Below are positions 3,001 through 62,768 of a stretch of DNA of 64,000 nt, piece by piece (position 1 is the stretch's first letter; each line of letters opens with the position of its first letter). The position numbers and the translations under genes were made by a program. Under the pieces are notes generated by a model. It ran no database searches. It saw nothing but the letters and a program-made list of their open reading frames with translations, and was not told the origin of the DNA. Source of the DNA: Mesodorylaimus sp. YZB2_4 (lineage: Eukaryota; Nematoda; Enoplea; Dorylaimida; Dorylaimidae); contig JASANH010001455.1 in the NCBI GenBank assembly GCA_030248295.1, forward strand, positions 248,001 to 312,000, in the 5' to 3' direction.

Positions 3001-4931
3001 CGGGTGACCGAATCTATTGCATCTCCGGCCATTGCTGTCAGGGCATCATCGTGTGCTCCATGTCCAACGACGAGCACCGTGAGAAGTGTAAACCCTAGCC
3101 AGGAAGGCCATGGCGAGTGGGAGAGAGTAATCGATCTCCTGTGGCTGGCAGACGTCAACCTATGAGGTTGGTGTTTCTAGGGCAGGTATAGTTGCGAGAC
3201 TAACCTACCTCCAGTCGGATTTTTTGTCCCGCTGACTTCAATCGGCCACACTCTCTCCCACGCCTGTCTGCACGGGTTGCAGAAGCCTGTAGCTCAGGGT
3301 GGTCGGTATGGCCAGCTCAACAGTACCGGCCTTCACTCACGAGCACCATCGCCGGGGTATGATTTGTTGTCCGTCCGTCCTACAGTGCCCACAACTGGTC
3401 AGGTGGATGTTGCAGCAGTCTGTGATGACTAAAAGTCTGAGCCTGCTCTGATCGTGAGTTTGACGGGCAGTGCCTTAGCTCCTCGCACTATCGTCATCAG
3501 AACTCGTCCTACAAGTGTCAGCCGCTTGGACTCTGGAGGCGATGAGTGGTGTTATAAAAGCAGCTGAGTGCTTACTCTTCCGATCGTGAATACGTTTGAG
3601 CAATCAAGATCTAAACAGTCGTGTGCAGCCTGTCAAAAAGTTTGAAGAATCAGCCGGAAGAAGGCAGGAGCTAAAATGCAGGAGGCGAAGATAAGAGAAG
3701 AAATGGCCTTGATCTGTGTGGATTTCCCCACTGTATTGTCTCATTCTCTTTTAGGTACGGTCTCAAATTTTTTACGGCCTGTGACGCGCCATCGGGGGCG
3801 ATTCTGAATGCGATATTCTACACAGGCATGAAAGGGGATACACGAGAAGTTGGTCAGAATACGCGAGTTGTCGTGGACGCTGTCAAACACTACGCTGGTT
3901 CGGGACGATGCGTGGTCACCGATCGCTATTTCACGTCGTGTCGACTGGCGGACGCGTTGGACAAAATGGATTTGGATTGTGTCGGCACGACATCGGCTCA
4001 TCGACGAGGCGTGCCCAAAGAATTCAAGAACTTGAATCTTCACAAATATCATTCGTCGAAAAAGAAGAAAAAAGCACGTGCGAGCAGCATCGAGAAAACG
4101 GTGGCGAGCGTGGCGGAAAGAGAACACGAGGGCAAAGGCCTGGCCGGATTTGTGCACAGCGGTAGGCTGACGTTGGTCAAGTACGAACCGACGGCCAGGA
4201 AGGCCCCGGTCTACCTGCTCACGAGTATACATCACAAACCCATGGTGGCCACCAAGGACGGAAAACCAGAGGCCGTTTTGTATTACAACACCAAAAAATT
4301 TGGTGTGGATTTGTTGGATCAATTGGTTAACTCATTTTCGACGAAACGAATCTGCCGACGGTGGCACATGCGCGTTTTCTTTTGGATTTTGGATGTGGCA
4401 GCCATTCAAGCTTATATTGCATATCGATTGGCAAACCCGAAATTGGCCACGAACTCGCATTTACGGCGTAAATTTTTGGATGATTTGGCAGTTTGTATGA
4501 CGCGTGCGCATCGTCATCGATTGCGCCAGACGAATACGCATCGGCAAAAGATGGTGACGCAATTGGAATTGGCGCTGCGATTATTTCAAAGAAAATCGAG
4601 ATTGGACTCTAGCGTGGATCGCGCCTCGTCGACTGCGGCATTGCTTCAATTACTCGATCCACGGGCTGCCAAGGCAAACGCGGAGAAATCGGCCAGGCAA
4701 AGCGCCAAGAAGTCTGCTAATCAAAGTTTTCAGTATTCTCGGTACGTTGGAAGAAAGTATTGCCAAGTTGTCAAGGGATGTCGGCATTCTGGCAGAATCA
4801 GGTGCGATGAATGCCAGAAAATTGTGTGCCCATCGCATCGAGTCGAATTCGCTGGGAAAAGGGTTCAGTGCAGTTCGTGTTTCGCGTCATCAACCACTCC
4901 TTCGTCGGCGAGCAGTTTGGTTCGGAAGTGA
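1..4931 (+). CDS. piggyBac transposase-like protein (PGBD), 5' truncated by window edge
   Basis: A DDE-type transposase of the piggyBac superfamily, either a domesticated gene or an intron-bearing transposon. Exons that close in phase are 1-211, 656-788, 1236-1357, 1442-1666 and 3755-4931. The first exon contains the family's region before the catalytic core (DPEAFMREI). The core carries all three expected acidic residues: VDESVLSFKGR (exon 4), VTDRYFTS and FGVDLLDQL (exon 5). The C-terminus has a cysteine-rich cross-brace zinc finger (CDECQKIVCPSH), followed by a Ser-rich tail ending at the stop at 4929. The frame has no stop or frameshift from base 3 onward, and the N-terminus lies before the window. 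Four introns are unusual for a recently mobile copy and favour host domestication (inference). The last intron, 1667-3754, is 2.1 kb and filled with repeats. No TTAA-flanked inverted termini were found in the window. Confidence 0.9.
828..905 (-). repeat. SINE family A, diverged 3'-end fragment (copy A5)
   Basis: Resembles the tail of the copy at 58842-59267: a tract like CCTAGTTCC..GGAGTTCCAACC followed by a CATATA..GGCCAGC segment, in the same orientation. It lies in an intron of the piggyBac-like gene. Divergence is high, so the assignment is tentative. Confidence 0.4.
1797..2131 (+). repeat. SINE family A, near full-length copy (A1)
   Basis: The 5' end looks like a tRNA-derived RNA polymerase III promoter, with an A-box-like AGTGGCTCAGTTGG and a B-box-like AGTTCTGTTCC about 55 bases on. 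The body then matches the reverse complement of 58842-59267 in order: a GTGACTCACcCGGTA core, GGAGGTGCTC, AGGGAAGCTGCCGTGAGAG, CACCTCACGGCC, and a tail with TTGGAAGT. It sits in the 2.1-kb intron of the piggyBac-like gene. Confidence 0.75.
2572..2963 (+). repeat. Dispersed repeat family D, copy D1
   Basis: Matches the reverse complement of 56492-56901 over its full length. Shared blocks include GAAAGGCGTGTGTCACA, GCACGCCTGGC..GGTGACTCAC, GGCATGCATCCCGG, GACCCTAGTCGATGGCAAGA and GCCCGCGGGTAAAGGG. It has no coding potential. The GCACGCCTGGC..GGTGACTCAC block also occurs in SINE family A, so the two families share a core. It lies in the piggyBac-like gene intron. Confidence 0.8.
3102..3266 (+). 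repeat. Dispersed repeat family C, copy C1
   Basis: Shares order and wording with 29150-29290: GGCCATGGCGAG, a GATCTCC..GGCTGG block, a hairpin GTCAACC..GGTTGGTGTTT, GCAGGTAT..GTTGCGAGA, and a closing CCGCTGACTTC.ATCGG. A third, interrupted copy lies at 8208-8590. All three are in the same orientation. Confidence 0.7.
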
Positions 4932-5362
4932 GCGCTCGTGCAGGATGGGAATGGTGGGTGATCGGCACTAAGGTCAGTTGCCCTTACGTTTTTTGTGCGG
5001 TTGTTGCATAGGCTTGGTACAAAGAGTCTGACAGCTTTGGTTTTCCATGTCTGCCACCCAAATTATGTGTTTGCGACAGGTGTGTTCATCTGGTTCGGTT
5101 GAAGGAAAGAGAACGTGTGGTTATGCGGACAGTCATGGGTAAGGTATTGGATAATGCAATGTAGAGCTGCAGCTGTCGTGCACTTTGCACTAAGTTCATG
5201 CGGGACCAGTTAATTTGGTGTACCTCATCCTTTGTTTGATTCGAGACCAAGGCATACTGTAGATGAAAAGATGTTACAGACTGCAAGATTTAGGTAGGCC
5301 TCCCAAATAAGGGTCTATGCTCTGCTACCTTTTGCTAGGCCTGTCTTTACGTTCTGAGTCTC
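4932..5362. other. Intergenic, no gene seen
   Basis: This holds the presumed 3' flank of the piggyBac-like gene and nothing codes convincingly. The last ten bases (5353-5362) are the left target-site duplication of the adjacent MULE-like element. Confidence 0.5.
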
Positions 5363-6338
5363 GGTCCATAACGTTTCGGCGCCGCCGATTAGGCGCGGAC
5401 GTTTCGGCGCCTACGTTTTGGCGCCAGGTCATTTCGGCGCCGCCGTTTAGGCGCGGACGTTTCGGCGCGAGTGTTTAGGCGCAAGGCATTTGGAAACCAG
5501 CGATGACTTTCATAATCGGTTAAGACGCGTGCTAACTTTATTTTTTTATTAACGTCCACGCATAAAACGAAAAACCGATAACATAGGTACAGTTTCTTCC
5601 GCTCTCCTTTTGATTCCTTGCTTCACGATAGAAACTTGAACGTCAGCGGCGTTTGCATCATGATTGTGTTCATGCATGCGCGAAATGACCTTATAAGGAC
5701 TGCTGTGAAACTAACTTGAAGTCAAAAAGTTTTTTCAGTGTACTCACGCTATCGCTTTCGTCTGATCGTGAGTGCAATCTTGCTTTGCAACCATCACTTT
5801 TCTTCTCTCATCGCCAGAAATTTTTTGCACCGTCGCTGCTCTGCTTGTCAAAGATGTACATAAATCCGTTGTCAATAAGCTTAAGCCTTTCACGCTTCGA
5901 TTGAGCGTACTGTGCCATCCTCCCAGTTAGCCCTTGCGTTCGCAGATCCACTGCAGGATGCCGTCGATGTTCTCCTAGCCTGGGTCCGTCTTGTAGCGTA
6001 GCGTGGTCAGGTAATCAAGAATCTCGGAGTACTCCTTCGACGCCGATCGGATCAACTTGGACGGGTTCTTATGCAGCTTCTTCTTTTGGCGAATGAGAAT
6101 GCGCAAAGCATCTGTTCTGCCCTTATATACTAAATATGTCCTTTGTCCTTGTGGTCCCCTTTGTTCTTTTTTCCGTGGTCAAAGGTCTGTTTCAAAAGTC
6201 TGCGCCGAGATGACCTTGCGTCTAAACGCTGGCGCCTAAACGTCCGCGCCTAAACGGCGGCGCCGAAATGACCTGGCGCCGAAACGTACGCGCCGAAACG
6301 TCCGCGCCTAATCGGCGGCGCCGAAACGTCCTGCTCCG
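5363..6338. mobile_element. MULE-like DNA transposon, non-autonomous, with 10-bp target duplication
   Basis: Two long inverted arms, about 5363-5490 and 6209-6338, match almost base for base. Each is built from repeated units such as GACGTTTCGGCGCC and TTTAGGCGCGGACG. The element is flanked by perfect 10-bp direct repeats, TCTGAGTCTC, at 5353-5362 and 6339-6348. Long terminal inverted repeats with 9-11 bp target duplications are characteristic of Mutator-like elements (known biology). Superfamily assignment rests on that alone because no transposase is present. The interior has no intact gene but contains a coding-like fragment on the minus strand. Confidence 0.85.
5927..6109 (-). pseudogene. 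Coding-like fragment inside the MULE-like element
   Basis: One minus-strand frame reads as ordinary protein for about 60 codons, interrupted by a single TAG. It includes QKKKLHKNPSKLIRS and KEYSEILDYLTTLRYKTD before the TAG, and GILQWICERKG before a terminal TAA. The composition is charged and protein-like, unlike the rest of the element. It could be a captured host exon (Pack-MULE style) or the remnant of the element's own protein. I do not recognise the family. Confidence 0.45.
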
Positions 6339-11064: not shown

Positions 11065-11297
11065 GGCAGATCCACAGCGCATGTGTCAGAGCGCTTGGCC
11101 GAGTGGCGCATCCAAGAGGCCGAGTGCCTGCGATAACAAGAGCACAGGTTCAGGATGCAACTGTACGTTGCCAGGAAAACTCGGTGATGCTGCGATTCAG
11201 AATTCAAAGCGTAAAGAGTGCAGACGATGCAGCTGCCTGCGTGATCGAGCCAGTGTGGGACCCCGGGTAGCTAGCTGACGGCTGTGTGCTCTGCGAC
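11065..11297. promoter_or_regulatory. Shared divergent promoter region of phosphatase-like gene and serpin
   Basis: Only 233 bases separate the two start codons, which face away from each other. No TATA box or other clear motif is visible. The region must hold both 5' leaders and promoters, so the two genes could be co-regulated (inference). Confidence 0.4.
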
Positions 11298-12939
11298 ATG
11301 GTTCCGGCTCTCCGCCATTCGTGGACAGCAAGAACTGATCAACTCGATCAATCTGTGGAAATATTTGTTCCCGACGATGCTGTTGCGGCACTTCTGGCAT
11401 CGATCGCATCGATCAGCGTTCTCCTGATTGTGTTTGCGTGCACTTGCTGCCGACCAGCTGACGAGACGGACAGGACCCTGCGCGAAGTCGTGAAGAAAAT
11501 GGGACAACATCCGCCCCGCAAGTCCTCTCGAAGTTCAGGCTCAAACAGTCAGAGCGAAAAGACGAGCTCGTCAGTTTCGCACGGGCCTTGCGAACTCGTG
11601 ACTGCAAAGTTCGCCTTGGGCTGGTTCCGCGCTTTGGACGTGGCTGCGCGCAAGAACGAGCCGCTGACCATGGTCACATCGCCGTACGCCATCCAAACAG
11701 CGTTCGCATTGTGGTACCTCGGCTTGAGCGTAGAGCGTCGAGAGCAAATGGTGGCAGCATTGTTCCCAGGGTGTGGATCGAAGGGCGGCGAAGTTTTTGC
11801 GGCTCTAAAAACAATGACGAACGCGACCAAGTGGTGGCGACGCCAGTCCATGCACGTGGCCAATCGACTCTACGCTCCCAAGCAGTGCCGCGTGGCATCC
11901 AAGTATCGTCGTAAAATATCAAAACTGTTTGGCGGGCAGCAGTTTCTGCAAGTCGACTTCGTCGGAAGTGCGCCATCGATCATTGACAGTATCAATCGCT
12001 GGGCGACGGCCGTCACGAAAAAACGGATTACTCAGCTGGTAAGCAGTCTTGCGATCGAACTGATAAGGTGCTAACTTCCCAGTTTCAGGTCAATTCGTTG
12101 GACGTGCACAAGGAGACGGGTCTTCTCATGGTCAGCGCCATCTTCGTCGACGCCGGTATGAATTTACAGTACCCTTTCGATCGATACTGCACACGGGTCG
12201 GCAAGAAGTTCTTTGCTGGCGGTGTCGAGAAGGTGTGCGATTACATGTGGCTGAAGCGACCACTGGACTACTTCGAGGACGACCAATGCCAAGTCTTGCG
12301 TCTACCATACAAGGGCGATGTCGCAATGGGCCTGTATTTCCTACTGCCGCGGAAAACAGACGGTTTGGCTGAACTGGAAGCTGCACTGACACCCGAACGT
12401 CTACTCGACTACTTGCACGCGTGTTCCGGATCGACGATCGAGGTCGAGGTACGCAAGAACCGACGAGACCGTATGCCCCACTAGAAATCCTTGTCTTTCA
12501 GGTGAGGGTGCCGAAGATGGTTTTGAATACGGAGCTACAACACGGCAATGTTCTGGAGGCGCTGGAGAAATTGAGCAATGCGACGACGGAGATTAGTTCG
12601 CCGCGGGTGCCCGAAAGCGAGTTCGAGCAGAGCAACTTCTCGAAAATGGTATTCATACCAAAGAAACCGAAAGGACGCGAAGCAAAACGGGCGAACAATG
12701 GTCGGAAATTATGGCTGGCCCAAATGGTGCAAAAGACCGCATTCGAATTGGAGGACATGTTCGTGGAGACAGATGGTGACGTCAGCCTCAGATCGTACCG
12801 GACGTTGTGCACGACCGACAGGGGAAGGACATCCTCAACCACTTTGTTCAACGCCGATCATCCCTTCTTCTTCGTGCTGGTCGTCGAAGAACCCAAGATT
12901 CCGATTGTGATGGGACGATTCTGCGGGCGACAAGAGTGA
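11298..12939 (+). CDS. Serpin with N-terminal transmembrane anchor, likely non-inhibitory
   Basis: Three exons, 11298-12038, 12089-12448 and 12502-12939, join in phase 0 and encode 512 residues. That is longer than the usual ~380-420 of serpins. A hydrophobic helix at residues about 28-48 (SISVLLIVFACTCC at its end) precedes a charged Ser-rich linker. The serpin fold then shows family marks: VTSPYAIQTAFALW, VANRLYAP, INRWATAVTKKRITQL, LRLPYKGDVAMGLYFLLP and the C-terminal FNADHPFFFVLVVEEP. The reactive-loop hinge reads ETDGDVSLRSY instead of a Thr followed by small residues, so loop insertion and protease inhibition are unlikely (family knowledge). Basic residues after the helix suggest the serpin body faces the cytosol (inference). 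The first ATG of the frame was chosen. Confidence 0.9.
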
Positions 12940-35100: not shown

Positions 35101-35587
35101 AAGGCGACGCCTTTTTTTAAAATGACCGCCGACATCTCGTTTGCTCTTCTCTCGGATGGATGCTCGAAAAGGTGGCTCATCTCTGGGCTCTTAGATGGTT
35201 GGCTAACGTAGCTGTCCTTTCACGACCACCCGCCGCCGGACATAGCAGTCAGGTTTAGGAAAGTAAGTTTTAATTAAGCCGAACCTTTGGAATTACATTG
35301 CTCGATCCACAGACCTGTCACTTGTTATTCGAGCCGCGGGAACAGGGTCGCCTCGGGGTTTCCAATGGACGAGCATTAGGCAGCCTTTCTAATGCCACTT
35401 CCCCTCGAGGTTTAGCCCCCAAATCAGCTTTTCCTCCATCAACATCTTAGAAAGAGTCTTTTCGCACTTTTTTAGACGCCATATCGACACGCAATTAGGA
35501 ACTCAGATTCGATGCAGTGCCAAATAGGATTAGCATCGATTACTCGTCCTCGCTCATCCTGGTAGCAAAATAGATAGCTCGTAAATA
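32101..35587. other. Long intergenic stretch before the aminergic GPCR
   Basis: A short C run lies at 32866-32877, and AT-rich sequence at 32940-33230. A 155-codon frame at 34653-35120 has no recognisable motif and ends in repetitive-looking codons, so I did not call it. Nothing else is supported. Confidence 0.4.
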
Positions 35588-37222
35588 ATGCTCAGCATGG
35601 CCGCCACCACGTCGGCGGAATTGTTGGGTTTTGTATCGCCTACGGCCGCCACGATCGCTTGGAATAATACGAAAGTCAAACGCTTTCCGCTGGAAGAGCC
35701 AGACAATCTGCCCTTCGTCACATTGAAGGCCGCTGCTCTGGGAGGTCTGGTCGTGTGGACAGTGATCGCCAATGTGCTCGTATTCGTGGTGCTCTACAAG
35801 AACCCCCGTCTACAAACCGTGCCCAACTTTTTGGTCGGCAATTTGGCATTTAGTGATTTATGCTTAGGCCTAGTCGTCTTGCCCTTGTCCGCCGTCTACG
35901 CAGTTACCTTGCATTGGTCGTTTGGAAGAACAATGTGCGAAATATGGTTGTCCTTGGACGTGTTGTGTTCCACAGCCTCCATATGGAACTTATCGATTAT
36001 CGGCTTGGATCGATATTGGGCCATCACAGCGCCTATAACCTACATGACTAAACGAACTATGCGTTCGGCCGTCATCATGATCGCTGGTGTCTGGGCATTG
36101 TCCATGCTCATCTCAGTGGCACCATTTTTTGGTTGGAGGAATTCGTCGGAGAAAGGCAATTATGTATTTAGCAATGACACCTCTAGTTATCAGTGCGTAT
36201 TTCTCGATCTGCCCGCGTATAGCGTCTATTCAGCGACCGGCTCATTTTATATTCCATTGACTGTCATGTTTTTCGTCTACTTCCAAATTTATCGAGCTTT
36301 CGCCGAACATAAAGCCAGACATTTATACAGGCAGAAAGTACTGAAAAAACATATCGAATCGACGATATTGCATGAAATTTCGCACGTATTGCCAATGCCC
36401 ATGCCGAGATGTCCCGAACAATTCGGCAAGGACGACGAAGACGACGATGATGACTCCGAGGACGACTCGTACGACGAAGATGAGGAGGAGGAAGAGGAGG
36501 AGGAGGAGGCCGAGGGAGATGGCAATGAAGCCAATCACAACCAAAAAACCACTCATCGCGAACTCGGCTCGATTATCACAGCCTCCACTATCGTCGAAAG
36601 AACATATTCGGCATCATTGAGCAGTGCTAAAACATCAATTCAAAATGGAGAAAGACAACCTTTGCGAAAAGCGGCCACTCGTCGATCACTGAGGCGTAAA
36701 TCGAGTTCGCGAGACAACGTTGGTGGTCCGCATCGACCAGTGTCCACTTCGGCTGATTCGGCTAATCATAATCAATTGGAAAATAGAGATAAATCTTTCA
36801 CTTACACCACCTTATCACCCAACAATAACCCTCGACGTCCTCTGATAGCTGATCGGAATAAAATAAATCAGCATCAACAAGTAAAGAGACGAGAAATTGG
36901 CCCAGTTACCAAAAAACAACCAGCTGCCATATCGGCAGCAAAGGAGAAACGTGGCGTCAAAGTGCTGGGGATTATTCTTGGTTGCTTCGCTGTATGTTGG
37001 ACACCATTTTTTGTAATGTATTCTATAACTGGCCTGTGCCAAGAATGTCGTCCGAATGCGCACGTGGAACAATTTATCACCTGGTTGGGTTATTCGAACA
37101 GTGCTATGAATCCAATTATTTATACCGTTTTTAATAGAGATTATCAAACTGCACTGAAACGACTCTTTACTGGAGCCACTGCTGGTGCGGTTGGAAAGAA
37201 ACGAAAAGCGCAAGCTGTTTGA
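35588..37222 (+). CDS. Intronless biogenic-amine-type GPCR
   Basis: A 544-residue seven-helix receptor in one exon. It shows the class A aminergic signature: TM2 NLAFSDLCLGLVVLPLSA, TM3 Asp in LSLDVLCSTASIWNL, DRYWAI, TM6 FAVCWTPFFVMYS, TM7 LGYSNSAMNPIIYTVFN and a helix-8 RDYQTALKRLF. It resembles octopamine/tyramine, dopamine and serotonin receptors. The ligand cannot be set by eye. The third intracellular loop is very long (about residues 240-455) and contains an uninterrupted acidic run of Asp then Glu near residues 280-312, encoded by GAC/GAG-rich sequence. A second in-frame ATG lies three codons downstream. Confidence 0.92.
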   Translation: MLSMAATTSAELLGFVSPTAATIAWNNTKVKRFPLEEPDNLPFVTLKAAALGGLVVWTVIANVLVFVVLYKNPRLQTVPNFLVGNLAFSDLCLGLVVLPLSAVYAVTLHWSFGRTMCEIWLSLDVLCSTASIWNLSIIGLDRYWAITAPITYMTKRTMRSAVIMIAGVWALSMLISVAPFFGWRNSSEKGNYVFSNDTSSYQCVFLDLPAYSVYSATGSFYIPLTVMFFVYFQIYRAFAEHKARHLYRQKVLKKHIESTILHEISHVLPMPMPRCPEQFGKDDEDDDDDSEDDSYDEDEEEEEEEEEAEGDGNEANHNQKTTHRELGSIITASTIVERTYSASLSSAKTSIQNGERQPLRKAATRRSLRRKSSSRDNVGGPHRPVSTSADSANHNQLENRDKSFTYTTLSPNNNPRRPLIADRNKINQHQQVKRREIGPVTKKQPAAISAAKEKRGVKVLGIILGCFAVCWTPFFVMYSITGLCQECRPNAHVEQFITWLGYSNSAMNPIIYTVFNRDYQTALKRLFTGATAGAVGKKRKAQAV

Positions 37223-40200
37223 AAAAATTCCTGTACATATCTTGTAAAAAATGCTTTTTTCATTTCATGTCGGAAATGCCATTTATTGTGTCAACAGGTT
37301 TCGGGTATTTAATCAATGACGTTAGCTGGTCACGCTATTTCTGTTTTAATTTTCTCGTATCGAGATGGACGAAGCTTGACAGTGATAACAAGTTGAAGGC
37401 ATTTAGGTCCTGTTTTGTGGGTAGAGCTTCAAGGAAGTGCTGATGTGTAGAGGAAGTTAGAGGCCGTTGTTAGCTCACGCCGTCAGTTCAGACAGGATGC
37501 TGTATACCTCAGGGGCGAAACGACTCTTATCACGTGAGAATAGATATGCCCAATTAAGTTTGAAAAGTGTACTAGGCCTTGCCTTGTTAGGTGGAGACTG
37601 ATGGTACATCTGGCCCACCTACTTCAGTGCCCCTTTGTGGACACCTGCCTGGTGATAGAAAACGCGAGTCATACGATTATTTTTAGGCGCGCCTGTACGG
37701 TCCGTTAGAAAATGGTCAGATGGTTCGTGCTTTTATGCGTGCGACCTTTTCAGCGCTAAAATTTTCCTGGATTACATTCTTCAGGGGGCCTGATAAGAGG
37801 TGCTGACATTAGTGAAGAAAGAGTGCCTAACCTTTTTAAAACCTACATAATGCCAAGACGTGACTAAAATAGGGCTGATGAAGGTTTGAAAAGGTGATGA
37901 AAAATGTCCATTTGTGCAGACACGCATGTAATTCAAGTATTTCTGTTCAATAGGCTCGAGTTTAGAAATTATCTTAGCATTTTCTGACAGACGAAGGAGT
38001 CCGCCATTAATTCTAATCCTTCTTGAGAATTACACTACCCTAATTAGGCCCCTCTAAAACACCCGCTTTTTTAAGACTGTTCCAAAATGTCTCGCCCTTC
38101 TTCAAAGGGACAGAATGCGCACACATGTGACAAGTTTTTGTCAGCTATGAGCAGCTCGAAGAATGACAATATTTGTCAGCCTGCTCGTGGGAAGGCACTT
38201 GGGTATTGAAGCCCTGTACTGTACGCATACACCTTCCCCCAAACGTGACAGGCAGAGGGAGCTTGGGCTGACCATGACAAGACAGCATGGAAATGGTGTA
38301 CCCATCAGAATCGATGTCTTATCTCAAGGGTTTTTAAATAAGACGTCTGTCTAGCGAACAAGTTTCCATGCGGGGATGATAGGAATGACGTTTGTTATAG
38401 CAACGGAAAAACTCCTCGCCTATCCAACGCGGACTAAACGATAAAGCCCAACGACAGACATTGCTGGGCATCGATTTCGTGTGATGCAATCTATAGTAGC
38501 AATAATTGACAGCTAACTAGCGTTTCTCAAATTCTAGGCTATGCATTTTTCTGTTTTGCACATTCCGATCTGTTTTTCTTCCTTAAATAATCCTTCATTT
38601 GATGCGGCATTCTGACTTTCATGCGCTCTCTCATCGTCACCACTCATAATTATGCTTTATTTTTATCGCCGTTGTGTTTCCTGTGAGCTGGTGTCTTTGA
38701 CTCCTGTTTCTTCACTATCTAGGCAATATGCAGGGGCGTCTTCGACTGGAGCCCATGATCCCCTGGTTCAGAAAACAGATGCACTATGAACTGCAGGGGT
38801 AGCAGAACCCAATAAAAACAGAGGTGGGACGTGCAGCAGAGTTCAATTCTTGATTATTGGTGAAGAAAATTTGAAGAAAAGGGATTAGGATGGCCATCTT
38901 ATTGCACATTCTATCAGAAAGAGTACCATCAGAAAGAACAACCGCTGGCATGCTCTATCATGCAGTTTCACATGGCTTTAGCGTTTTACAGTTCAAACTA
39001 TAGACACTGGGTGGAAAAAATGAGTCAGGTACGTAGCGCTGCCGCCTACTGTAGGTCTATTTTTACGTGTTTACCTATTAATTCGACGACAACAACATCC
39101 AGGGGACATCGAGAATCGATTTGTATTCCATCGAGCCTTCTAGAAGATTCAGGAGAACCAGAAAGAACAAAGAAGACCGGTGATATCCTTGTGATATGCA
39201 AATTGATTTATCTGGGGTGGATAAAGGCGTATCTGCATCTTTCTTGGTCAAGTTGTGCCGGTGGCTTTGCGGCGTGGTTGATATTGAACCCCGGGTCGGA
39301 TCCCCCTCCTGATCAAATCAGCTACAATACAGGAGTCCGCTGTTTCAGGTGACGTTTTTGATCGATATCTCTCCCACCGACCAATGTTTCGTCAAGTCCC
39401 ATCGTAGGGTTTTAGGGGCTTTGTGCAGGATAATGGTAGGCCCAAAAATACTCGAGATGATAAGTAGTTCAGAAATGGCGCTGAAAATTCCTCCCAGATA
39501 TATTGTATAGTAGACTTCGAAACTAGTCTTACATTGCTTATAACTCTACGAATAGGGTGTCTTCTGTCGTTTGCTCTCACGATCAGTATCACTCGCAGCT
39601 CTGGTAATGCCAGTGCTAATTGTTGCTAGAAATCGTAATCAGCGACTACGTTCATCGTGCATGCACTTGGTTTAACATACAGTGGATCCAATCCATCTTC
39701 AGATACGATTCTTGCCCGCCAAGGCTACAGATAGTCTACTGCAGGCAAATGCTATCCCTTTGGATTCGGACTGCACTAGTCACAGCAACCGACAAAGGGA
39801 CCCATCAAGTTTTCCACCCTCCGCCCCCCCCCCCCCCCCCGCCCATCGCTTAGCGTCATTAACCTATAAATGGTGTACCTGTTCATTCATGACCAGTGTA
39901 TAAGTACCCGTCTCTCGAATACCTGAACGTATAGTACAGTAGACAGTATTCTCTTCCGAGTGTCATTGAAATTTGTATCCAGCCAGGATACGGTATTTAA
40001 TGGTACTGTATATATTGGATGATCAATTGTACGCCAGCGGTGCAGCAGTGTCAGATCACAAGGATACTCTAACACGCATCCACTACCTACCTCCTGCCAG
40101 GTTACCGCCCCCTGAGTCTAGGCGCCTGACTCCCGTCGGACGAATCCTCGCGGCGCGTAGGTGGTGCCACGAGGAGCTTACGCATACCGCTAAAACTCGG

Positions 40201-41810: not shown

Positions 41811-42839
41811 CTACAAACCTACGATCTCGGTGCGTCGATGATTCGCGCTCGACACCTGCTGATTGCCCCTACTGATTACGATGGATGCCACTTGATTCGA
41901 CGGCTTGTTCCAAACATTTTTCATCGTATGAGAAGCAGCGCTACGAATCTCCTTATTCCGAAATAGGAGCAGTGTCGTGTTGAGGAACAGGTCGATGGTC
42001 ATCAGCACGCCTCCGTAGGCAGCTATTCGTTTGCCATGCTGAATGATAATGCTGGCCAAGAAGTACAGCAGCTTGGTGGTGAGTGATAAGAAGACGTGCA
42101 TGATGACTTGGTTGCGCAAGTAGGGTATCAGGGCCATCTGCCTGCTCATGCTGGCCTGCTCAGCTTGCGACATGCTCTCTCGGCTGGCTCGGCCCAGGCG
42201 GACACGAATGTAGACGGCCAGCACGGCGTAGAATGCCACGACGGCAAAGATCAAGAGGAAATCGATGACTCGGAACATCTGATTGCTCAATTCGCTGATG
42301 GCACTGTACGTGTTCACACACGATACCACTTGGCCCAACGTGATGCCCATGAAGGCTGGTGTGTTCATGACCAGGATCGATAGCACATAACAGCCGATGC
42401 AGATCTGACACGCCGACCTCACCTTAAAGCTTCTGTACTTGGCGATGTAAGCTAAAGCTGCCACACGATCGCAGACTAGCAACAGCAGCAAGCTCGCTTC
42501 CAATCCTTGGCCGTGAAGGAGCCAGAAATGAATCACATTGCAGACATAGCGCTGTTGGAAAATAGAGACCAGTCCGACTGTGCGCAGTGACCTTTGGACT
42601 CCGACCACGAACAGTTGGGCCGATGACAAAGCGCGGCCAAAGGATAAGAAGCCGATGATGACGAAGAAACGTGTCCGCAGTGTCTTGGTCTTGTAGATGG
42701 TCAGTGCGATGACCAGGTTGCTGAATGTGCAATAGACACCGCACAGAAGGGTGTAGAAGAAGATTAGTTGGACCCACAGTTCAATCTCCGTCAGTCCAAT
42801 GTCGACTGTGAGTGGACCAGAGATGGTGGTGTTGTTCAT
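41811..42839 (-). CDS. Nematode chemoreceptor-like GPCR (srsx-like), copy 1
   Basis: 342 residues in a single exon, with seven hydrophobic helices. N-glycosylation sites at the N-terminus (MNNTTISG), helix 1 CGVYCTFSNLVIALTIY, helix 3 ending LLLLLVCDRVAALAYIAKY (a DRY-like CDR with the typical following Tyr) and helix 7 LNTTLLLFRNKEIR. This layout fits the nematode serpentine receptor srsx class (family resemblance by eye). Residues 1-320 are nearly identical to the gene at 52994-53998. The last ~20 residues differ because homology ends before the stop. Confidence 0.85.
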   Translation of the reverse strand: MNNTTISGPLTVDIGLTEIELWVQLIFFYTLLCGVYCTFSNLVIALTIYKTKTLRTRFFVIIGFLSFGRALSSAQLFVVGVQRSLRTVGLVSIFQQRYVCNVIHFWLLHGQGLEASLLLLLVCDRVAALAYIAKYRSFKVRSACQICIGCYVLSILVMNTPAFMGITLGQVVSCVNTYSAISELSNQMFRVIDFLLIFAVVAFYAVLAVYIRVRLGRASRESMSQAEQASMSRQMALIPYLRNQVIMHVFLSLTTKLLYFLASIIIQHGKRIAAYGGVLMTIDLFLNTTLLLFRNKEIRSAASHTMKNVWNKPSNQVASIVISRGNQQVSSANHRRTEIVGL

Positions 42840-42996
42840 AGTGGCTGCCTAGAAATACTGTAGAAAGAGTGTTAGCATCCTTTTCATGGCTAGTTTTTCG
42901 GCGACTAGCAAACGAAGTAGTTCTCGTCTCCAGAGATTCTTTATTTTATTTAGTGCTGGGTTAGTACCTGTGGGACATAATTTAGACAAAGGTTTG

Positions 42997-52993: not shown

Positions 52994-53998
52994 TTAAGCT
53001 GTACCCTTCAATGATTCCTGATGGCCACTACTGATTACGATGGATGCCACTTGATTCGGCGGCTTGTTCCAAACACTTTTCATCGCATGAGAAGCAGCGC
53101 TAAGAATCTCCTCGTTCCGAAATAGGAGCAGTGTCGTGTTGAGGAACAGGTCGATGGTCATCAGCACGCCTCCGTAGGCAGCTATTCGTTTGCCATGCTG
53201 AATGATAATGCTGGCCAAGAAGTACAGCAGCTTGGTGGTGAGTGATAAGAAGACGTGCATGATGACTTGGTTGCGCAAGTAGGGTATCAGGGCCATCTGC
53301 CTGCTCATGCTGGCCTGCTCAGCTTGCGACGTGCTCTCTCGGCTGGCTCGGCCCAGGCGGACACGAATGTAGACGGCCAGCACGGCGTAGAATGCCACGA
53401 CGGCAAAGATCAAGAGGAAATCGATGACTCGGAACATCTGATTGCTCAATTCGCTGATGGCACTGTACGTGTTCACACACAATACCACTTGGCCCAACGT
53501 GATGCCCATGAAGGCTGGTGTGTTCATGACCAGGATCGATAGCACATAACAGCCGATGCAGATCTGACACGCCGACCTCACCTTAAAGCTTCTGTACTTG
53601 GCGATGTAAGCTAAAGCTGCCACACGATCGCAGACTAGCAACAGCAGCAAGCTCGCTTCCAATCCTTGGCCGTGAAGGAGCCAGAAATGAATCACATTGC
53701 AGACATAGCGCTGTTGGAAAATAGAGACCAGTCCGACTGTGCGCAGTGACCTTTGGACTCCGACCACGAACAGTTGGGCCGATGACAAAGCGCGGCCAAA
53801 GGATAAGAAGCCGATGATGACGAAGAAACGTGTCCGCAGTGTCTTGGTCTTGTAGATGGTCAGTGCGATGACCAGGTTGCTGACTGTGCAATAGACACCG
53901 CACAGAAGGGTGTAGAAGAAGATTAGTTGGACCCACAGTTCAATCTCCGTCAGTCCAATGTCGACTGTGAGTGGACCAGAGATGGTGGTGTTGTTCAT
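52994..53998 (-). CDS. Nematode chemoreceptor-like GPCR (srsx-like), copy 2
   Basis: 334 residues in a single exon, from MNNTTISG to a short C-terminus ending ESLKGTA. The sequence is about 99% identical to 41869-42847 with no indel over some 975 bases. I count nine differences, six of them within the last 85 bases of the shared block. The changes include Phe to Val in helix 1 and Ser to Leu in the second extracellular loop. Three upstream codons extend the frame to 54016, but the Met matching copy 1 is used. Homology does not extend into either flank. Confidence 0.85.
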   Translation of the reverse strand: MNNTTISGPLTVDIGLTEIELWVQLIFFYTLLCGVYCTVSNLVIALTIYKTKTLRTRFFVIIGFLSFGRALSSAQLFVVGVQRSLRTVGLVSIFQQRYVCNVIHFWLLHGQGLEASLLLLLVCDRVAALAYIAKYRSFKVRSACQICIGCYVLSILVMNTPAFMGITLGQVVLCVNTYSAISELSNQMFRVIDFLLIFAVVAFYAVLAVYIRVRLGRASRESTSQAEQASMSRQMALIPYLRNQVIMHVFLSLTTKLLYFLASIIIQHGKRIAAYGGVLMTIDLFLNTTLLLFRNEEILSAASHAMKSVWNKPPNQVASIVISSGHQESLKGTA

Positions 53999-54016
53999 AG
54001 TGTCTGTATTGTACAA

Positions 54017-55362
54017 TCGTTGTTTAATACTGTTTCATGCCAGGGCAAGGACTCAAACGCACACTTTTCAGGGAAACAAAAAGCCAGCACCCCACCTCCT
54101 ACAGCAAATTTGCCACTTCGAGAGTTTGTGATGTGTGAGCGAGCAGCCCACCCCACCTTACTTTTCCGTCTGAAGCAAGAAAATCAAAGCAACTTGCCTA
54201 AACAGTCGGATGTTCGTGACTGTATGATTAATGCTTATTGTCGAGGGCTAGGCCTTGACTAGAAATATGCACCCAACCTGGCTTTTACCTGCACCATTGG
54301 TGAGGTCGCCATTTATTTATTCGATGGTATTCAACGAGTGACAATAAGTCCGGTAACAATCGTTGAGTACAATGCTCTGCTGGGCGCGAACTCATTAGCA
54401 CTGATTTCTCCAGAGCTTTCTGCAGTCTCTCAAGGGGCGTTGATTGGCTGCTTTGTGTTTTCACTTTTAAATGAGTAAAAGCTATCACAGCCATCTTAAA
54501 TCCTTGCGCTCACGATCAGTGTCGTGTGTGCGTGAGTATGTATAGCCCTGAACACTAAGAGGCGATCGGTCGCATGACCAGGTACTCCTAATCAGATTAG
54601 TCCATCAAAGCATATCCACGCCTAAGGTACCCAGTCCAAAGTATCTAAACCCCAACGCATACTGGCGCGATGCCTGTCAATGGGTTGGTCCTCTCGTAGT
54701 AAAGGGTGGCCTCTTCTACACTTTCCGGGTCTGCCTCTTATCGTGTGGCAGGGCGGCCAGATTCACGTTAGCTCAATTTAGTCAAACAAAGGAACCATAA
54801 AAAGTATTGACATTATGCAAAGAAGGCTCCAGTATGAGCTTGAATTTTTTAAAATTTGTACACCATGGGGCCAGTTTTGCAATTAGTCAAGACACGGAAT
54901 ATAAGGGCATCCTGCTGAGTCCTATTTTGCGTCATAGTGAGACGGCCGTTCTAAATTTAGGAAATGTCCTCGACGACCATAAAAGCAGCCATACATGGTC
55001 AAACGGGACAGCTAATCGATGCACTCGACGACGCGATTCAATCTAACAAATAACAGTAGGTACCTAAAAAAGGTTTTATCTTTTTCTTATTAGCATCCCA
55101 AGACTTGATTAAGATTATTTTTAGCTAATGAAATCTCAAATCAACTTTGAATCTTTCGCAAGGTGCTTGTGTTTTAACTAAAACTCAAAGAAGAAAGGAA
55201 AAGACAAAATATTTTGGAAAACGTGGAGAGCAACTAACTCTTTCAAGATAAGGCAAAAGCAAGGCACTTGAGCATAATGCAGTTTCAAAGTGGAGGGACG
55301 ACAGGTAGAGCTTTGCACCTCGCTAAATCCGATAATCGATAACTTTGCAGCTAGTCCATGGT
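54017..55362. other. Intergenic, no gene seen
   Basis: No supported exon and no clear repeat boundary. Confidence 0.4.
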
Positions 55363-56901: not shown

Positions 56902-57763
56902 CGATGCGTGAGATTGTTCCTGCGGCTTGCCCGGGGGCGAGCCAAGAATTTCACTGGCGTCACGGACAGGATTTCATAAGGGAAAATTTAATGCTGCGAT
57001 CCGCATGTGTGACGTTTTCAAATGCAATTGAAATCTTCAGCCGAAATACTGCAAAATGTCAGTGGGTATAATCAGAGGAGTCAGCGAAGCGTCATCTCAA
57101 AATAACCACTTCCAGTCAGAAGTAAGAAGGTCTTGGTCTGATTTCGACCTTCTGATTTCGAGGCTAGACGAGACGTGGTGTCTGATTTCTTGTTGTAAGA
57201 AGTTTGACTACATCGAAGCGGAGCTAAATTACGCTTCAAAGAATCAAAATGGCTCTGTAAGTGGCCGGCTCGTCCCTGGTCACATTCGCCATGCTGCGAC
57301 AGAACCTTCTGCAAAGAGATAGGTGACCGATTGAATGGCTAATTATGAATGCGTACGCTGTTCAAGGAGCAACGATTGGTCTCTTTATCGCTTCGTAAGA
57401 AATGGTTTGTAATAGAAATAGTAACATGGAAGCTTCTTTTGGCCGTGACTCATCCCTAGTGTTCTTCTCGCATCACAACAGGGAGTAGTCCAGTGCTTGT
57501 TTATGATAAATTCATAAAACTTGTTGACGTGTCTCTCAATACCGTTCAATTAGCACACACCCAGGTGAGTGTCTGCATTACTGCATATGGTTTTTCTTGA
57601 ACAATTTCGAAAAAGTAAGGCAGTCTTCCAGCTCAGATTTTCTGTGCTTGCCCTCCAGCGACCCTGCAGACACGCTCAAGCAGATACTGTAGGAAAACAT
57701 GATAGCGGCATAGCAAAGGAATGTGACACGTCTTTCTTGTCAAATATCGCACCATTTTTCAAA
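56902..57763. other. Intergenic, 3' flank of the EGF/ShKT gene
   Basis: No supported exon on either strand. Confidence 0.4.
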
Positions 57764-60700
57764 CTACTTTGCTGTATAGCCTGTTGAAATAATAAAAATT
57801 ACCAGCATGATCGTATTTGAGGACTGTGACTTGTAATTGGCGGCCACGTAAGCGAAACGCTCGTTGTGCCTGAAAAGATACAAAGCCTGGCTTGCCAGAT
57901 AACGATTCGGATCGGACTGGATTACTCGATTTTCCAGATTTTGGGAGAACTTAGAAAAGCTCAATTTTCTGTTTTTTTTTCTTACCTGCGAGTACAAGAA
58001 CTGAATCGCGCTTTTTGCAAAAAATGCCTGCAAAACCAGTCATACAAGGCTTCGACTCGATTTTTCACATGCTTGCAGAATCGAACTCGGGTCTCGCATG
58101 CCGGCTGGAGGCGCTGTTACCCGCGCTGTATACCATTACTAATGCTACATTATGGGGGCACCTAGCAGCTTTTCGAACGCGTGCTGGCAGCAAATGACTC
58201 TGTGCTTGTCTCAAAAGTATGGAGTCGGCCAAGGATTAACGACTCTTTTAGTCCTGATAGAGGCCACATACATGTGCTGTAATTTCTTGTTAGGTACCTG
58301 CTCACGACGCCAACCCTTCAAATGCAGTAACCAGTTTCCCTTAATCGGCAGTCGTGCTTTCGATAAATCTTAGCGGACACAGCAGCGTGAACAAAAATCT
58401 GGCCAGTTTAATTCTCAATATCAAGTTCTGACTGCTGGCTAGGCACATAATGTGGCTGGACCTTTAGCCGCATCTGGACTGACGGCATGCATATGCGCAT
58501 GCAGTATGGTCCGCCTGGATGCCTCCAGGGTCGCGGCCTGGCGGGTTAAGGCGCTTGCCTCCCACGCTGGGTGGGCACTTCCAGAGGGGGGTCTGAAAAT
58601 GATTGTGGATTTATGTGTTCCCTAGCCCTTGAGCGCGCTATATGGTGCTGTGGATCAAGTATGACATGACATGACAGCCATGCTAGCCATTTATAGACTG
58701 GAGTGGTCTCGCAAATCAGCTGTCTCGCTTGGCGTTCTTTGATCTTACGATACAGCCCTGAAGCGTATACGCAGTCTAGAGTAAACATACTGTCCTTGAT
58801 TTTCTGTAAGTTCTTTTAAAAAAATTTGTGAGATGGGTCCCGCGCCGCCCTAGTTCCCCGCGGAACTTCCAACAGTTTTGTCGACATATACAGCCAGCAG
58901 TCATGATATGATAAGCGAGGCCGTGAGGTGATCAGCTCTCACGGCAGCTTCCCTTTGCGCATCTCCGCTAAGAGCACCTCGACACGATGGAATCTTGAGC
59001 TGGAAACCGTCTTCCTCCGATGATTGCGGGCGGGCTTTGAACCCTGTCGGTGTTGGACAGCCGCGACTGTCTCCTCGTTTAGCTCCGGTCTCTCCACTTT
59101 GGCCCTTGGCGATACCGAGTGAGTCACCTACGGCCTGGCGTGCGAGGTCAGCGAGGGTTTATAGTTCGCAAACCGACCTCCATCACGAAGCGAACCCGGG
59201 ACGAGTCCAGCCACTCGCTCCCAAGCAATATGGAGAGACGGATGCCGAACCGCTGCACCGCGGCTGCTTTCTACAAGTTTTCCAGACACCTACTTTTTGA
59301 AGTTACTACCCGCTGGGCTCGTAGCTGACGAAGCCTTACGCTGATATGGCCAGTCCTCCTCACCTCCACCTAACCACAAACAGGTCGTGCTTACCGATCT
59401 AGGCAGCGAGTTGTCAGCGTGGGGCATACCCTCAGCGTAGGTAGTGTCCATCAACAACGTTTCGTTCTGCCAGTTTCCTTCTTCGATCGTGGTCACTCCT
59501 AAACGGGGGCATAGATGGGGCTTACTTTTGTTTAAAATGCAATAAACGTCTACTAACCATTGTTATCCGTACTTAACAGGTACACGCGCAGTGGCTTCGA
59601 GCCAGGTTTCAGGGTCAGGAAGCCCACACTTCTCTGCTCATCACTCGAGTCTGCCACATTGATGCTTCGTGAGCTGAAAAAGGAAGCCAGAGGGCTTGAA
59701 TGACCCTCGATAGAACCCCCTTGGAAGCGAGCAAGGAAATGTGCTCGGATGGTGCTCCCAGAGGTTGCAAGCTCACACACACACCAAGGGAGAGGGCAGG
59801 AGCCTAAAACGCCAAGCTGGCGGGTTTCTGTATCGCCTAACCCTGCAGCTGTCACGGTAGAGTTCGTATCTCCCGCATAGATATCATATAGTGTAGCGTG
59901 CGTTAGTGTAAAGCTTGCTCGCCAGGGCTACGGCCAGAGCAGGCGACCGGTGTGATGTATGGAAGAACCGTAATTTAATTCTCGTCTAGTGCGGGTTGGC
60001 CTCGAGATTGCTTCTCTCCACACGCGGTCACGTCGGACGGCAACGTGACACAGCAGAGTCACTACCCCTTGTTAGCCAGGGACAGCGGAAATTCGTCTTT
60101 ATCACTCGTAAAATACGGGATCTTCTCGGTCTGCTCTTTCAGTTGAGAACGAGCACCATGCAACGTCAGTCGAGAGATGAGGTCTGCAGGATCAAGGAGC
60201 ACCCCACTTCGCTGCGATACATCTTTCCTTCAGCTATTCGGCCTCTCATGTGCTACACACCTTAGTGGTGTCTCTTGTCTGATTATACAGTGCTGTAATA
60301 TTGCTCTTCGGCTTCGTTCGACCATTTGCTCTCCCTCTAACCCCATCCACACCACACCGCACTGGACCCATCTTCCTTGATCCCTAGCTGTCAGCAATCA
60401 GACATACTCACGTATAGTTGATAGATGGCGTTCCGAACATGGGCACCTCAGTGGCCATGAACCTGATCACTTCATGGTAGCCCTTGGTGGCCGCACTAAA
60501 GTCCATGGGATACTTCAACGAATCCAAGACCATCGTCTCCCACGTGCCCACTATAAAGTCCAGTGGCTCGAGAACTGGTGGCAGGGGTACGTCCAGGAAG
60601 ACTAGGAAATAATGACAGATTTGAGCACCTGGACAGTGGCCTGAACTTGGTCACTTACCTTCCGAGTTATTACTTCGCACACACTTGCTGCAACTTTCAC

Positions 60701-62768
60701 CACAGTTCACATCAAAGAAACGGGTCACTGTGCGCGCCCACGTGCACCTGTCTTCGGAACGCCACAGTTTGCAACTCTTGTAAATATCGCGGCAAGGTCC
60801 TGCAAGGAACAAAACCGCTGGGCTACACCTGTTCTGAGGTTGGACCATTATTGTGTGTAGACCCAGTGTTCAGTGTGACCGAATAAGGACAAGTTTATTG
60901 GCATTTTCAAGCGGGCATTGACGAGCCAATTGAAGGAATAGTCTCTCATCTGCAGGTGCGACCTGAGGATATGGACTTTCGACTTCAGGCCCCGATTTCA
61001 GTCGTCAAATAGTTCGACTTCGACTTACTGTGACAACGGTCCCCCATCCAACCATCCGGACAAATGCACTTGAAATCGAGTTTCCTATCCTTGCATATGC
61101 CACCATTCAGACACGGATTCGATTGGCACTCGTCGATTTCTAGAATAGAAATACAGTTAGGTGTCAAAAAATGTCAGGATGTTGTGCAGGGTAAAAAATC
61201 GCTTCAGCAGAATAAGAGATGGTGACAAAAGTGCGATGTTTGCTATGCAAGGCAGACACTCCTTGGAAGAGACCCAGGAGTCAAGCGAGTCATGAAAGCG
61301 GTCAGCAAAGGATCAGCTAAGGACTTGTTGAGACTTGTTTTACCCAGTGTCACACGTGGCTGGTACCTGTCATTCCTACGATAGAAAAACAGATTTTGGA
61401 AACTGCACCTGGGTTTAGGCATGAATGGTTATCCCAGGTACGTCCAGGTATCATCAGTCCGGCACAAATGCCACCGCGATGGAAAGTACTGCCTTCACTC
61501 AGGTACTCCCACGGATTGCGAGCAGCATGCATGCCCAATGCAAGTCCCACCATGATGGAAAACCCCCACTGGCAGGACGCATGAGTACGTGGACCCAAAG
61601 AGGGTGTCCCTAATGACAGAGCGAGTTACCTCTGTCGCAATGTTCCCCGGTGTAGCCAGGCAAGCACTCGCATCGGAACTTTCTCGACTGTTCATCCAAC
61701 ACGCAAGTGCCACCATTCTCGCACAGGTAGGATGGACAGAATCCTGAAAGGAGGGTCTTGGCTCAGCAGAATTACAGAAACCACTGGTCCATACTCTCGC
61801 AGTGCCGTCCAACATATCCTTGAGGACAGTGACAACGATAGCCTTGGTCACCAGTACCGTCCAACTCACACGTGGCACCGTTCACGCACGGATTGAGCAG
61901 ACAGACATTGGCGGCTGAAAGTAAGTGGAAGATACAAGTTGAAGACTACCAGCTCGCATATAAGAAAACATCTGAAACCAAATTTTAAGCAGGTTGAGGA
62001 AGACTGTGCCCTTCAGTAGAAGGGACTGGAATTTTGCCACAATAGACCACAGCAAACATGGTTGGAAAAGCCACATGACCGCAGTAGGAGAGTAAAACAG
62101 CTTCATAAGGGATTTTCCATCCATTTTCCACCCTGGATTCACTGCAGTCAAATTTACTGCTTTCGATGAACTTGAAAAACGGAAACAGTGGATTTGAATG
62201 CTAAGATGAAAAAGACCAGAGGAAACTGGCTACATAACAGGTCACAGACAAATACAGCACAGGCTGACCCTTGTAATCCTGTATTGATGTAGAGGCTCGA
62301 CTGGCAATCGACATTCTGCACAGAGCTGGGAGCTTGGAGCATCACCCGTCAGGGTGATGTTTCAGCATTACATTGGACCCAGTCGCATTACAGGGGAAGA
62401 TGCAGTAGTTTACCCATCCAATGATCAGTTTTATCTACTTCACATTCCCCTGCCATCCCCTCCCACTTACTTTCGCATAACTTTCCAGTCCACCTGGGTG
62501 CGCACAAGCAAGCCACATCGTTGGCGAATGCCACAGCGAAACACGTGCCATTGTTCTTGCAAGGATTTTGAGCACATAGATCTAAAATATCCCCCTTTAA
62601 CCTCCAGATTTTGAGACCCAAGCGGGACTTACCTCCTGTTCGTCCACCCCCTCCATTTATTGCAGCTCCATTCTCCAGCTCTTCAGAACCCTGTTGGTCT
62701 TCCTGTGCATAAACACTGTCCAGAGTGATCACAGTCCAAAGGCATAGGCAGCAGATTATGTAATTCAT
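57764..62768 (-). CDS. Secreted EGF(x4)-ShKT-nitrobindin-like protein
   Basis: Twelve exons all join in phase to 422 residues: 62633-62768, 62471-62581, 61795-61914, 61630-61743, 61029-61139, 60659-60799, 60412-60601, 59558-59673, 59395-59498, 57986-58027, 57803-57869 and 57764-57780. A signal peptide (MNYIICCLCLWTVITLDSVY) and Gly-rich spacer precede four EGF domains, one per exon. They include CAQNPCKNNGTC, CENGGTC..CECLPGYTGEHC and a calcium-type EIDECQSNPCLNGGIC. Exon 6 is an ShKT domain (CRDIYKSC..CTWARTV..NCGESCSKC). Exons 7-12 resemble the nitrobindin/THAP4 heme-binding beta-barrel: LEPLDFIVGTWETM, a GYHEVIRF strand, VGFLTLKPGSKPL, and FRLRGRQLQVTVLKYDH near the end. An upstream in-frame ATG at 62828 would bury the signal peptide. 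The last intron region carries two SINEs. Confidence 0.85.
58530..58677 (+). repeat. SINE family B, copy B4
   Basis: Head TCGCGGCCTGGCGGGTTAAG (A box), a degenerate B-box region, TATGTGTTCCCTAGCCCTTG, AGCGCGCTATATGGTGCT and the tail ATGACATGACATGACA. It sits in the 1.4-kb intron 58028-59394 of the EGF/ShKT gene, antisense to it. Confidence 0.85.
58842..59267 (-). repeat. SINE family A, longest copy (A2)
   Basis: On the minus strand: head GCCGCGGTGCAGCGGTTCGG (A box), B box GGGTTCGCTTC, core GCACGCCAGGCCGTAGGTGA, AAAGGGAAGCTGCCGTGAGA, CACCTCACGGCC and a tail TTGGAAGTTCCGCGGGGAAC. It lies in the same intron as SINE B4, sense to the host gene. Confidence 0.85.
59838..60056 (-). repeat. Dispersed repeat family F, copy F2
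   Basis: Reverse-complement match to 19438-19655. It lies in the EGF/ShKT gene intron 59674-60411. Confidence 0.8.
62285..62375 (-). repeat. Dispersed repeat family E, copy E2
   Basis: On the minus strand: GAAACATCACCCTGACGGGT, GATGCT, and TCGATTGCCAGTCGAGCCTC then TACA, as in E1. It lies in the EGF/ShKT gene intron 61915-62470. Confidence 0.75.

Follow-up and report, generated by a model that had tools for sequence, protein, structure and literature searches.

A 64,000-nucleotide stretch of the genome of the nematode Mesodorylaimus sp. YZB2_4 (positions 248,001 to 312,000 of contig JASANH010001455.1; hereafter 'the window' denotes that whole stretch) contains a gene on its minus strand, at 62768-57759, whose product joins a signal-peptide-like start to four EGF domains, one ShKT domain and a C-terminal barrel related to the nitrobindins. 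At the two positions where nitrobindins carry conserved heme-site histidines this barrel carries a tyrosine and a glutamine, and the same domain order recurs at other loci of the genome, the barrels of which also contain no histidine at the aligned iron-coordinating position. Overall, these features are best explained, with somewhat more confidence than doubt, by a secreted modular protein that is held by its EGF and ShKT domains and that uses a heme-free barrel as a cup or docking domain. We infer that the gene represents an EGF-bearing offshoot of the ShKT-nitrobindin family, in which the heme ligand was lost and which yielded an extracellular binding or adhesion protein.

Gene structure and domain content

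The gene model, the frame of which is open throughout, consists of 10 exons encoding 417 residues, separated by introns that are all GT-AG; the GT-AG sites, the phases and the paralogues together point to splicing in this form. When the protein was returned to the window with a spliced aligner, the same ten exons were obtained, as would be expected. The original prediction, made from the letters of the window, had held that the exons close in phase, and the open frame across ten GT-AG-bounded exons agrees with it; that prediction had also invoked twelve exons, 422 residues and an end at 57764, whereas ten exons suffice, the residue count is lower by five and the stop codon lies at 57761-57759. 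The features of the gene, in the order in which they are transcribed, are as follows.

62633..62768, minus strand: exon 1, signal-peptide-like MNYIICCLCLWTVITLDSVYA and a short acidic/Gly spacer, residues 1-45 (ATG at 62768, donor GTAAGT)
62471..62581, minus strand: exon 2, EGF1, residues 46-82 (gene model, Pfam, cysteine count)
61795..61914, minus strand: exon 3, EGF2, residues 84-122 (gene model, Pfam, cysteine count)
61630..61743, minus strand: exon 4, EGF3, residues 124-159 (gene model, Pfam, cysteine count)
61029..61139, minus strand: exon 5, EGF4, with a C-x-D/N-x4-F/Y-x-C-x-C pattern, residues 161-197 (gene model, Pfam, cysteine count)
60659..60799, minus strand: exon 6, ShKT, with six cysteines at 200, 207, 216, 230, 234 and 237 (gene model, Pfam)
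60412..60601, minus strand: exon 7, barrel part 1, PPVLEPLDFIVGTWET ... MFGTPSINYT (gene model, Pfam, genome and PDB searches)
59558..59673, minus strand: exon 8, barrel part 2, with the Gln321 codon (59636-59634) at the distal-histidine position (gene model, alignment)
59395..59498, minus strand: exon 9, barrel part 3, VTTIEEG ... LPRS (gene model, genome search)
58800..59300, plus strand: dispersed repeat in the last intron (query stretch; genome search)
57759..57869, minus strand: exon 10, barrel part 4 with the stop codon, and with the Tyr407 codon (57794-57792) at the proximal-histidine position (model, alignments)

Reading through exon 10 is uninterrupted, passing through FRLRGRQLQVTVLKYDH to AGNFYYFNRLYSKVV-stop, and the tails of paralogues display a similar pattern (for example, GGKDYFTKYYYK); the C-terminal part ends ...FRLRGRQLQVTVLKYDHAGNFYYFNRLYSKVV-stop, all within that one exon. 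A 22-base intron yielding a stop at 57764, which is our reconstruction of the route to the earlier end point, was rejected because the paralogue tails favour read-through. The 1.5-kb last intron (57870-59394) contains one copy of the dispersed repeat, and an additional exon there was rejected because the repeat occupies that intron. The repeat is approximately 450-500 bases long and, at the best-scoring sites elsewhere, is 81-86% identical along most of its extent; a first look gave 3650 candidates genome-wide, of which the best 40 were scored, with 42 matches listed. The exact SL1 spliced-leader pattern has 0 matches assembly-wide.

Each of the four EGF exons encodes one EGF with six cysteines (spacings 4-5-8/10/11-1-8), as had been predicted, and the protein matches the Pfam EGF family (PF00008) over 4 stretches with 100.8 bits (4.4e-29). 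Three of the four match the O-fucose consensus, and the pattern noted above in EGF4 is the hydroxylation pattern of calcium-binding EGF domains. The six cysteines claimed for the ShKT exon are likewise present, and that exon alone reaches 20.7 bits against a Pfam cut-off of 20.9. The C-terminal region, which includes LEPLDFIVGTWET, matches THAP4_heme-bd (PF08768) at residues 255-397 with 50.5 bits (cut-off 25; 3.3e-13), and the barrel contains no cysteine. As judged by hydropathy, the top 11-residue window of the protein begins at residue 4 (2.84), and the best 19-residue window beyond the N-terminus, at residue 245, averages 1.31. The original prediction had called the protein secreted: the signal-like hydrophobic start on the hydropathy scale stood, and export itself, which such a start would direct, is probable.

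Searched alone against the PDB, the window barrel found human THAP4 as its best match (1.1e-6) and the Mycobacterium tuberculosis protein Rv2717c at 0.36. A profile built from seven barrels of this genome (including two EGF-less copies, which are closer to nitrobindins than the EGF-bearing ones) gave the human THAP4 domain 3ia8 at 6.8e-23 (best), 2fr2 at 2.6e-10 and At1g79260 at 3.7e-10; at E<=1, 13 of 16 matches were nitrobindins or their redesigns, the other three being weak (0.51-0.86). When these seven barrels are aligned, 16 columns do not vary at all, including G19, W21, Y42, E44, S60, N62, N101, G103 and G110. Typical nitrobindins form a ten-stranded beta-barrel, bind ferric heme and nitric oxide, and isomerise peroxynitrite. 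The Pfam and PDB profile matches bear out the predicted modular protein with a nitrobindin-type barrel, and they suggest that its C-terminus adopts that fold.

Related barrels in the genome and in the literature

The genome (145 Mb in 1067 contigs) was searched in a manner that scores the best candidates, such that the copy numbers given here are lower bounds. With the window barrel as a query, matches beyond the window were found on contigs C182, C121, C1, C51, C285, C49 and C402, that on C402 being weak in this search (E 0.2) and 1.6e-5 in another; a search with PF08768 added C120, while C198, C41 and a further site on C121 (C121b) emerged with another type of query. C182, C121 and C1 contain four EGF exons, a ShKT exon and four barrel exons, as does the window gene, so that the EGF4-ShKT-barrel order is found at four loci including the window. 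The barrel exons of these four have common lengths (190 or 193, 116 and 104 bases, followed by the tail) and matching phases. C51 has one recognised EGF, then a ShKT and then a barrel in which the last two exons are fused, and in C285 and C49 a ShKT directly precedes a barrel whose exons are laid out as in those four loci.

The Pfam barrel cut-off was passed by all seven paralogue models scanned, a set standing apart from C121b, C198 and C41, and the ShK cut-off by C1 (25.8 bits), C51 (21.7 bits), C285 and C49; at E<=0.01, ShK was not listed for C182 or C121, and two of the four EGFs of C121 pass Pfam singly. Since the order is repeated at C182, C121 and C1 with barrels that exceed the Pfam cut-off, it is not due to chance, and since the ShKT directly precedes the barrel at C51, C285 and C49 as well as at the loci with the EGF4-ShKT-barrel order, the junction between these two domains is widely shared. 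The N-termini of the paralogue models are tentative, and the first two to three exons given by the aligner for C182, C1 and C51 are not trusted.

A tblastn search with the EGF-ShKT part of the window protein turned up no EGF in the stretches fetched for C285, C49, C120, C121b, C198 and C41, although the upstream exons of C198, C41 and C120 are unsettled and an EGF beyond those stretches is therefore possible; the same search found the ShKT domains of C49 and C285, and its best other match (E 0.08) lay on the strand opposite to the C120 gene. In a maximum-likelihood tree of 12 barrels, rooted at the midpoint and thus not indicative of the ancestral form, the five EGF-bearing barrels (which share about 30-58% identity) are set apart from the others by a branch supported at 100/99, and they were found together in 100% of 200 bootstrap trees. 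C120 groups with human THAP4 (support 86/87), and C41 forms a long branch.

Several of these loci display features of their own. On C402 (L025, approximately 3260-4750) lies an apparently broken relative, in which three EGFs are recognised, the barrel exon is out of frame and the tail contains a stop. C121b (L026, G000:C121:11737-12291, minus strand) encodes a small nitrobindin in which a signal-like start leads straight into the barrel and which has a Ser/Thr-rich tail; it shares its strand with the EGF-bearing C121 gene and lies downstream of that gene, at a distance of less than 2 kb. On C285, the last two barrel exons occur twice (37190-37472 and 42490-42772) and encode identical protein, which points either to duplication of part of the gene or to a repeat in the assembly. 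On C1 (L020, approximately 5300-6200), a long Pro/Thr/Glu-rich open frame lies upstream of the first EGF, and perhaps corresponds to a mucin-like stalk for which the window gene has no counterpart.

The combination of a ShKT and a nitrobindin domain appears to have been catalogued previously. The Caenorhabditis elegans gene C28H8.5 is listed as DUF1794 in one table (PMC3597506), a label that has been applied to 2FR2/Rv2717c (PMC4532494), and as 'ShTK domain' in another (PMC2265412), and on these listings the pairing of the two domains is already known in nematodes. By those entries C28H8.5 resembles C285 and C49; the table rows concerned make no mention of EGFs. The same gene stands among those induced over twofold in a table of a study of Vibrio cholerae hemolysin (PMC3364981).

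Among characterized proteins, the C-terminal domain of human THAP4 (3ia8) belongs to the same family and is the best PDB match of the window barrel. THAP4, described as nuclear in the passage concerned (PMC6275384), has both heme histidines, whereas the window protein has neither, and possesses instead a signal-like start, EGFs and a ShKT. Rv2717c (2fr2) and At1g79260 also belong to the family by profile; the M. tuberculosis and Arabidopsis nitrobindins, as described in the text available, are single-domain heme proteins with a proximal histidine, unlike the window protein. A THAP4-like heme-binding protein was noted in the genome paper of the rat flea (PMC12211885), and thus an invertebrate protein with a heme-binding beta-barrel domain, in a passage that mentions neither EGF nor ShKT. 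Within the parts of the open-licence literature that were covered, no paper describing an EGF-bearing form of nitrobindin was recognised, and the passages seen in papers that connect nitrobindins with nematodes describe neither an EGF- nor a ShKT-bearing form; published descriptions may nevertheless exist elsewhere.

The heme site and possible functions

Nitrobindins from bacteria to humans are described as having a conserved, iron-coordinating proximal histidine (His158 in Arabidopsis numbering) and a distal-side histidine (His76) (PMC10135655, in the part consulted). To locate the corresponding columns, eleven barrels of this genome were aligned with the human THAP4 domain using MAFFT, with C402 and the incomplete additional copy at C285 left out of the histidine counts. 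At the proximal column, none of the five EGF-bearing copies has histidine, the residues being Tyr407 in the window protein, Asp in C182, Glu in C121, Asp in C1 and Gln in C51; the copies without a detected EGF have histidine in five of six cases (C285, C49, C120, C121b and C198, with Asp in C41), as does human THAP4. At the distal column, four of the five EGF-bearing copies have glutamine (Gln321 in the window protein, and its counterparts in C121, C1 and C51) and one, C182, has histidine, while histidine is present in human THAP4 and in each of the six copies where no EGF was detected. No histidine is found in the columns on either side of the proximal position in the five EGF-bearing copies, and a profile-profile alignment with hhalign placed the tail of the window protein in the same register as MAFFT. 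The histidines that the window barrel does contain (287, 373 and 402) do not fall in any column common to the EGF-bearing copies.

The original prediction had proposed binding of heme or nitric oxide (NO), to be checked by a heme-ligating histidine at the barrel mouth. In the window protein both conserved histidines are replaced, by Tyr407 and Gln321, and the position aligned with the ligand lacks histidine in every intact EGF-bearing copy; since another residue occupies the position of the heme-holding histidine, the protein is probably not a nitric-oxide sensor. The presence in one genome of histidine-bearing copies and of an EGF-bearing group without the proximal histidine provides a natural comparison, which asks what the fold does without heme and whether tethering by EGF domains accompanied the change. 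The Pfam name 'heme-bd' may mis-describe the EGF-bearing group.

If the protein acts as we favour, its signal peptide would export it from the cell, and the four EGFs and the ShKT would form disulfide-locked modules that space and hold it within an extracellular complex or matrix. The barrel, bereft of its heme histidines, would then hold no heme and act not as a heme or NO centre but as a cup or a docking domain, most likely for a protein partner or a small hydrophobic molecule. A hydrophobic ligand other than heme may be bound, in keeping with the lipid option of the original prediction. A bolder form of this proposal, which is tentative and to which we incline less than we doubt it, is that these proteins constitute an animal clade, not described before, in which extracellular nitrobindin barrels tethered by EGFs gave up heme and adopted a new ligand (a lipid, a pheromone-like or other hydrophobic molecule, or a ferric heme held by tyrosine). 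Were that correct, a fold for heme and NO would have been turned into an extracellular carrier or signal-binding protein.

Several observations weigh against the favoured explanation. The alignment of the tail is uncertain by about one residue, and a shift would place Tyr at the proximal position in four of the five EGF-bearing copies and Ser in C51. His402, five residues ahead of Tyr407, could conceivably serve as an iron ligand. In C41, a copy with no EGF found, the proximal residue is Asp, such that loss of the histidine is not confined to the EGF-bearing group, and the distal histidine is kept in C182. The broken copy on C402 has a histidine directly before the Glu that matches the proximal position. 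With regard to the fold itself, the window barrel alone also matches ribosomal protein L22 weakly in the PDB (0.004-0.013), above Rv2717c.

The principal competing explanation, an unlikely one, is that the barrel binds heme through Tyr407, Tyr408 or a carboxylate, and that the protein is an extracellular carrier of ferric heme rather than an NO sensor. Heme carriers with tyrosine ligands are known in bacteria, Tyr407 is itself aligned with the ligand in the window protein, and a Tyr-Phe pair near the end of the barrel is kept in four of the five EGF-bearing copies, with a Tyr nearby in C51. A strict switch from histidine to tyrosine is true of the window protein by MAFFT and hhalign, but the proximal column of the other four copies holds Asp, Glu, Asp and Gln, and the switch was on that account demoted to a rival. 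These residues speak against a tyrosine-held heme, as does the loss of the distal contact in four of the five copies.

It is rather improbable that the barrel holds no ligand in its cavity and is a structural or adhesive module of the cuticle or matrix, in which the EGFs and ShKT do the work. EGF and ShKT domains are common in proteins of the extracellular matrix, and the O-fucose consensus in three of the four EGFs would suit such a role. The sixteen invariant columns of the seven barrels count against it insofar as they show that the fold has been kept, which is not to say that the cavity is used.

Quite improbable, and weaker than a tyrosine-ligated heme, is a secreted, heme-binding nitrobindin in which His402 or another histidine is the ligand and which senses or scavenges NO. 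The barrel does exceed the Pfam cut-off of a heme-binding family, and C121b, in which a signal-like start directly precedes the barrel, keeps both histidines; the window protein has neither, and its three barrel histidines share no column common to the EGF-bearing copies. This idea resembles the nitrophorins of blood-feeding insects, which, in the account consulted, are likewise barrels and transport NO bound to heme (PMC10135655). Nitrophorins are eight-stranded lipocalins, a different family, and their proximal histidine has no counterpart in the window barrel.

Finally, that exons 1-6 are transcribed separately from exons 7-10, as two genes or a mis-joined model, is very unlikely indeed: the weaker donor of exon 8 (GTTAGT) and the derivation of the joins from genomic sequence alone lend it something, but C182, C121 and C1 hold EGF, ShKT and barrel exons in the same order and phase, and C51, C285 and C49 have a ShKT immediately 5' of the barrel.

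Other features of the window

A search of the whole window against Rfam at gathering scores found nothing. A Pfam scan of 10 of its long frames gave several further matches. Three long single frames match seven-transmembrane receptors, at 35585-37219 (plus strand), 41814-42848 (minus strand) and 52997-54034 (minus strand), one match being to 7tm_1 (1.1e-66) and two being of the Srsx chemoreceptor type (8.4e-7 and 5.5e-6). These Srsx-type matches and the ShKT-nitrobindin pairing known from C. elegans suggest a nematode affinity of the DNA, to which the search for the exact SL1 pattern lends no confirmation. A match to the transposase family DDE_Tnp_1_7 lies at 3675-4928 on the plus strand (8.6e-25), and a partial serpin match lies at 11271-12071 on the same strand (7.6e-17).

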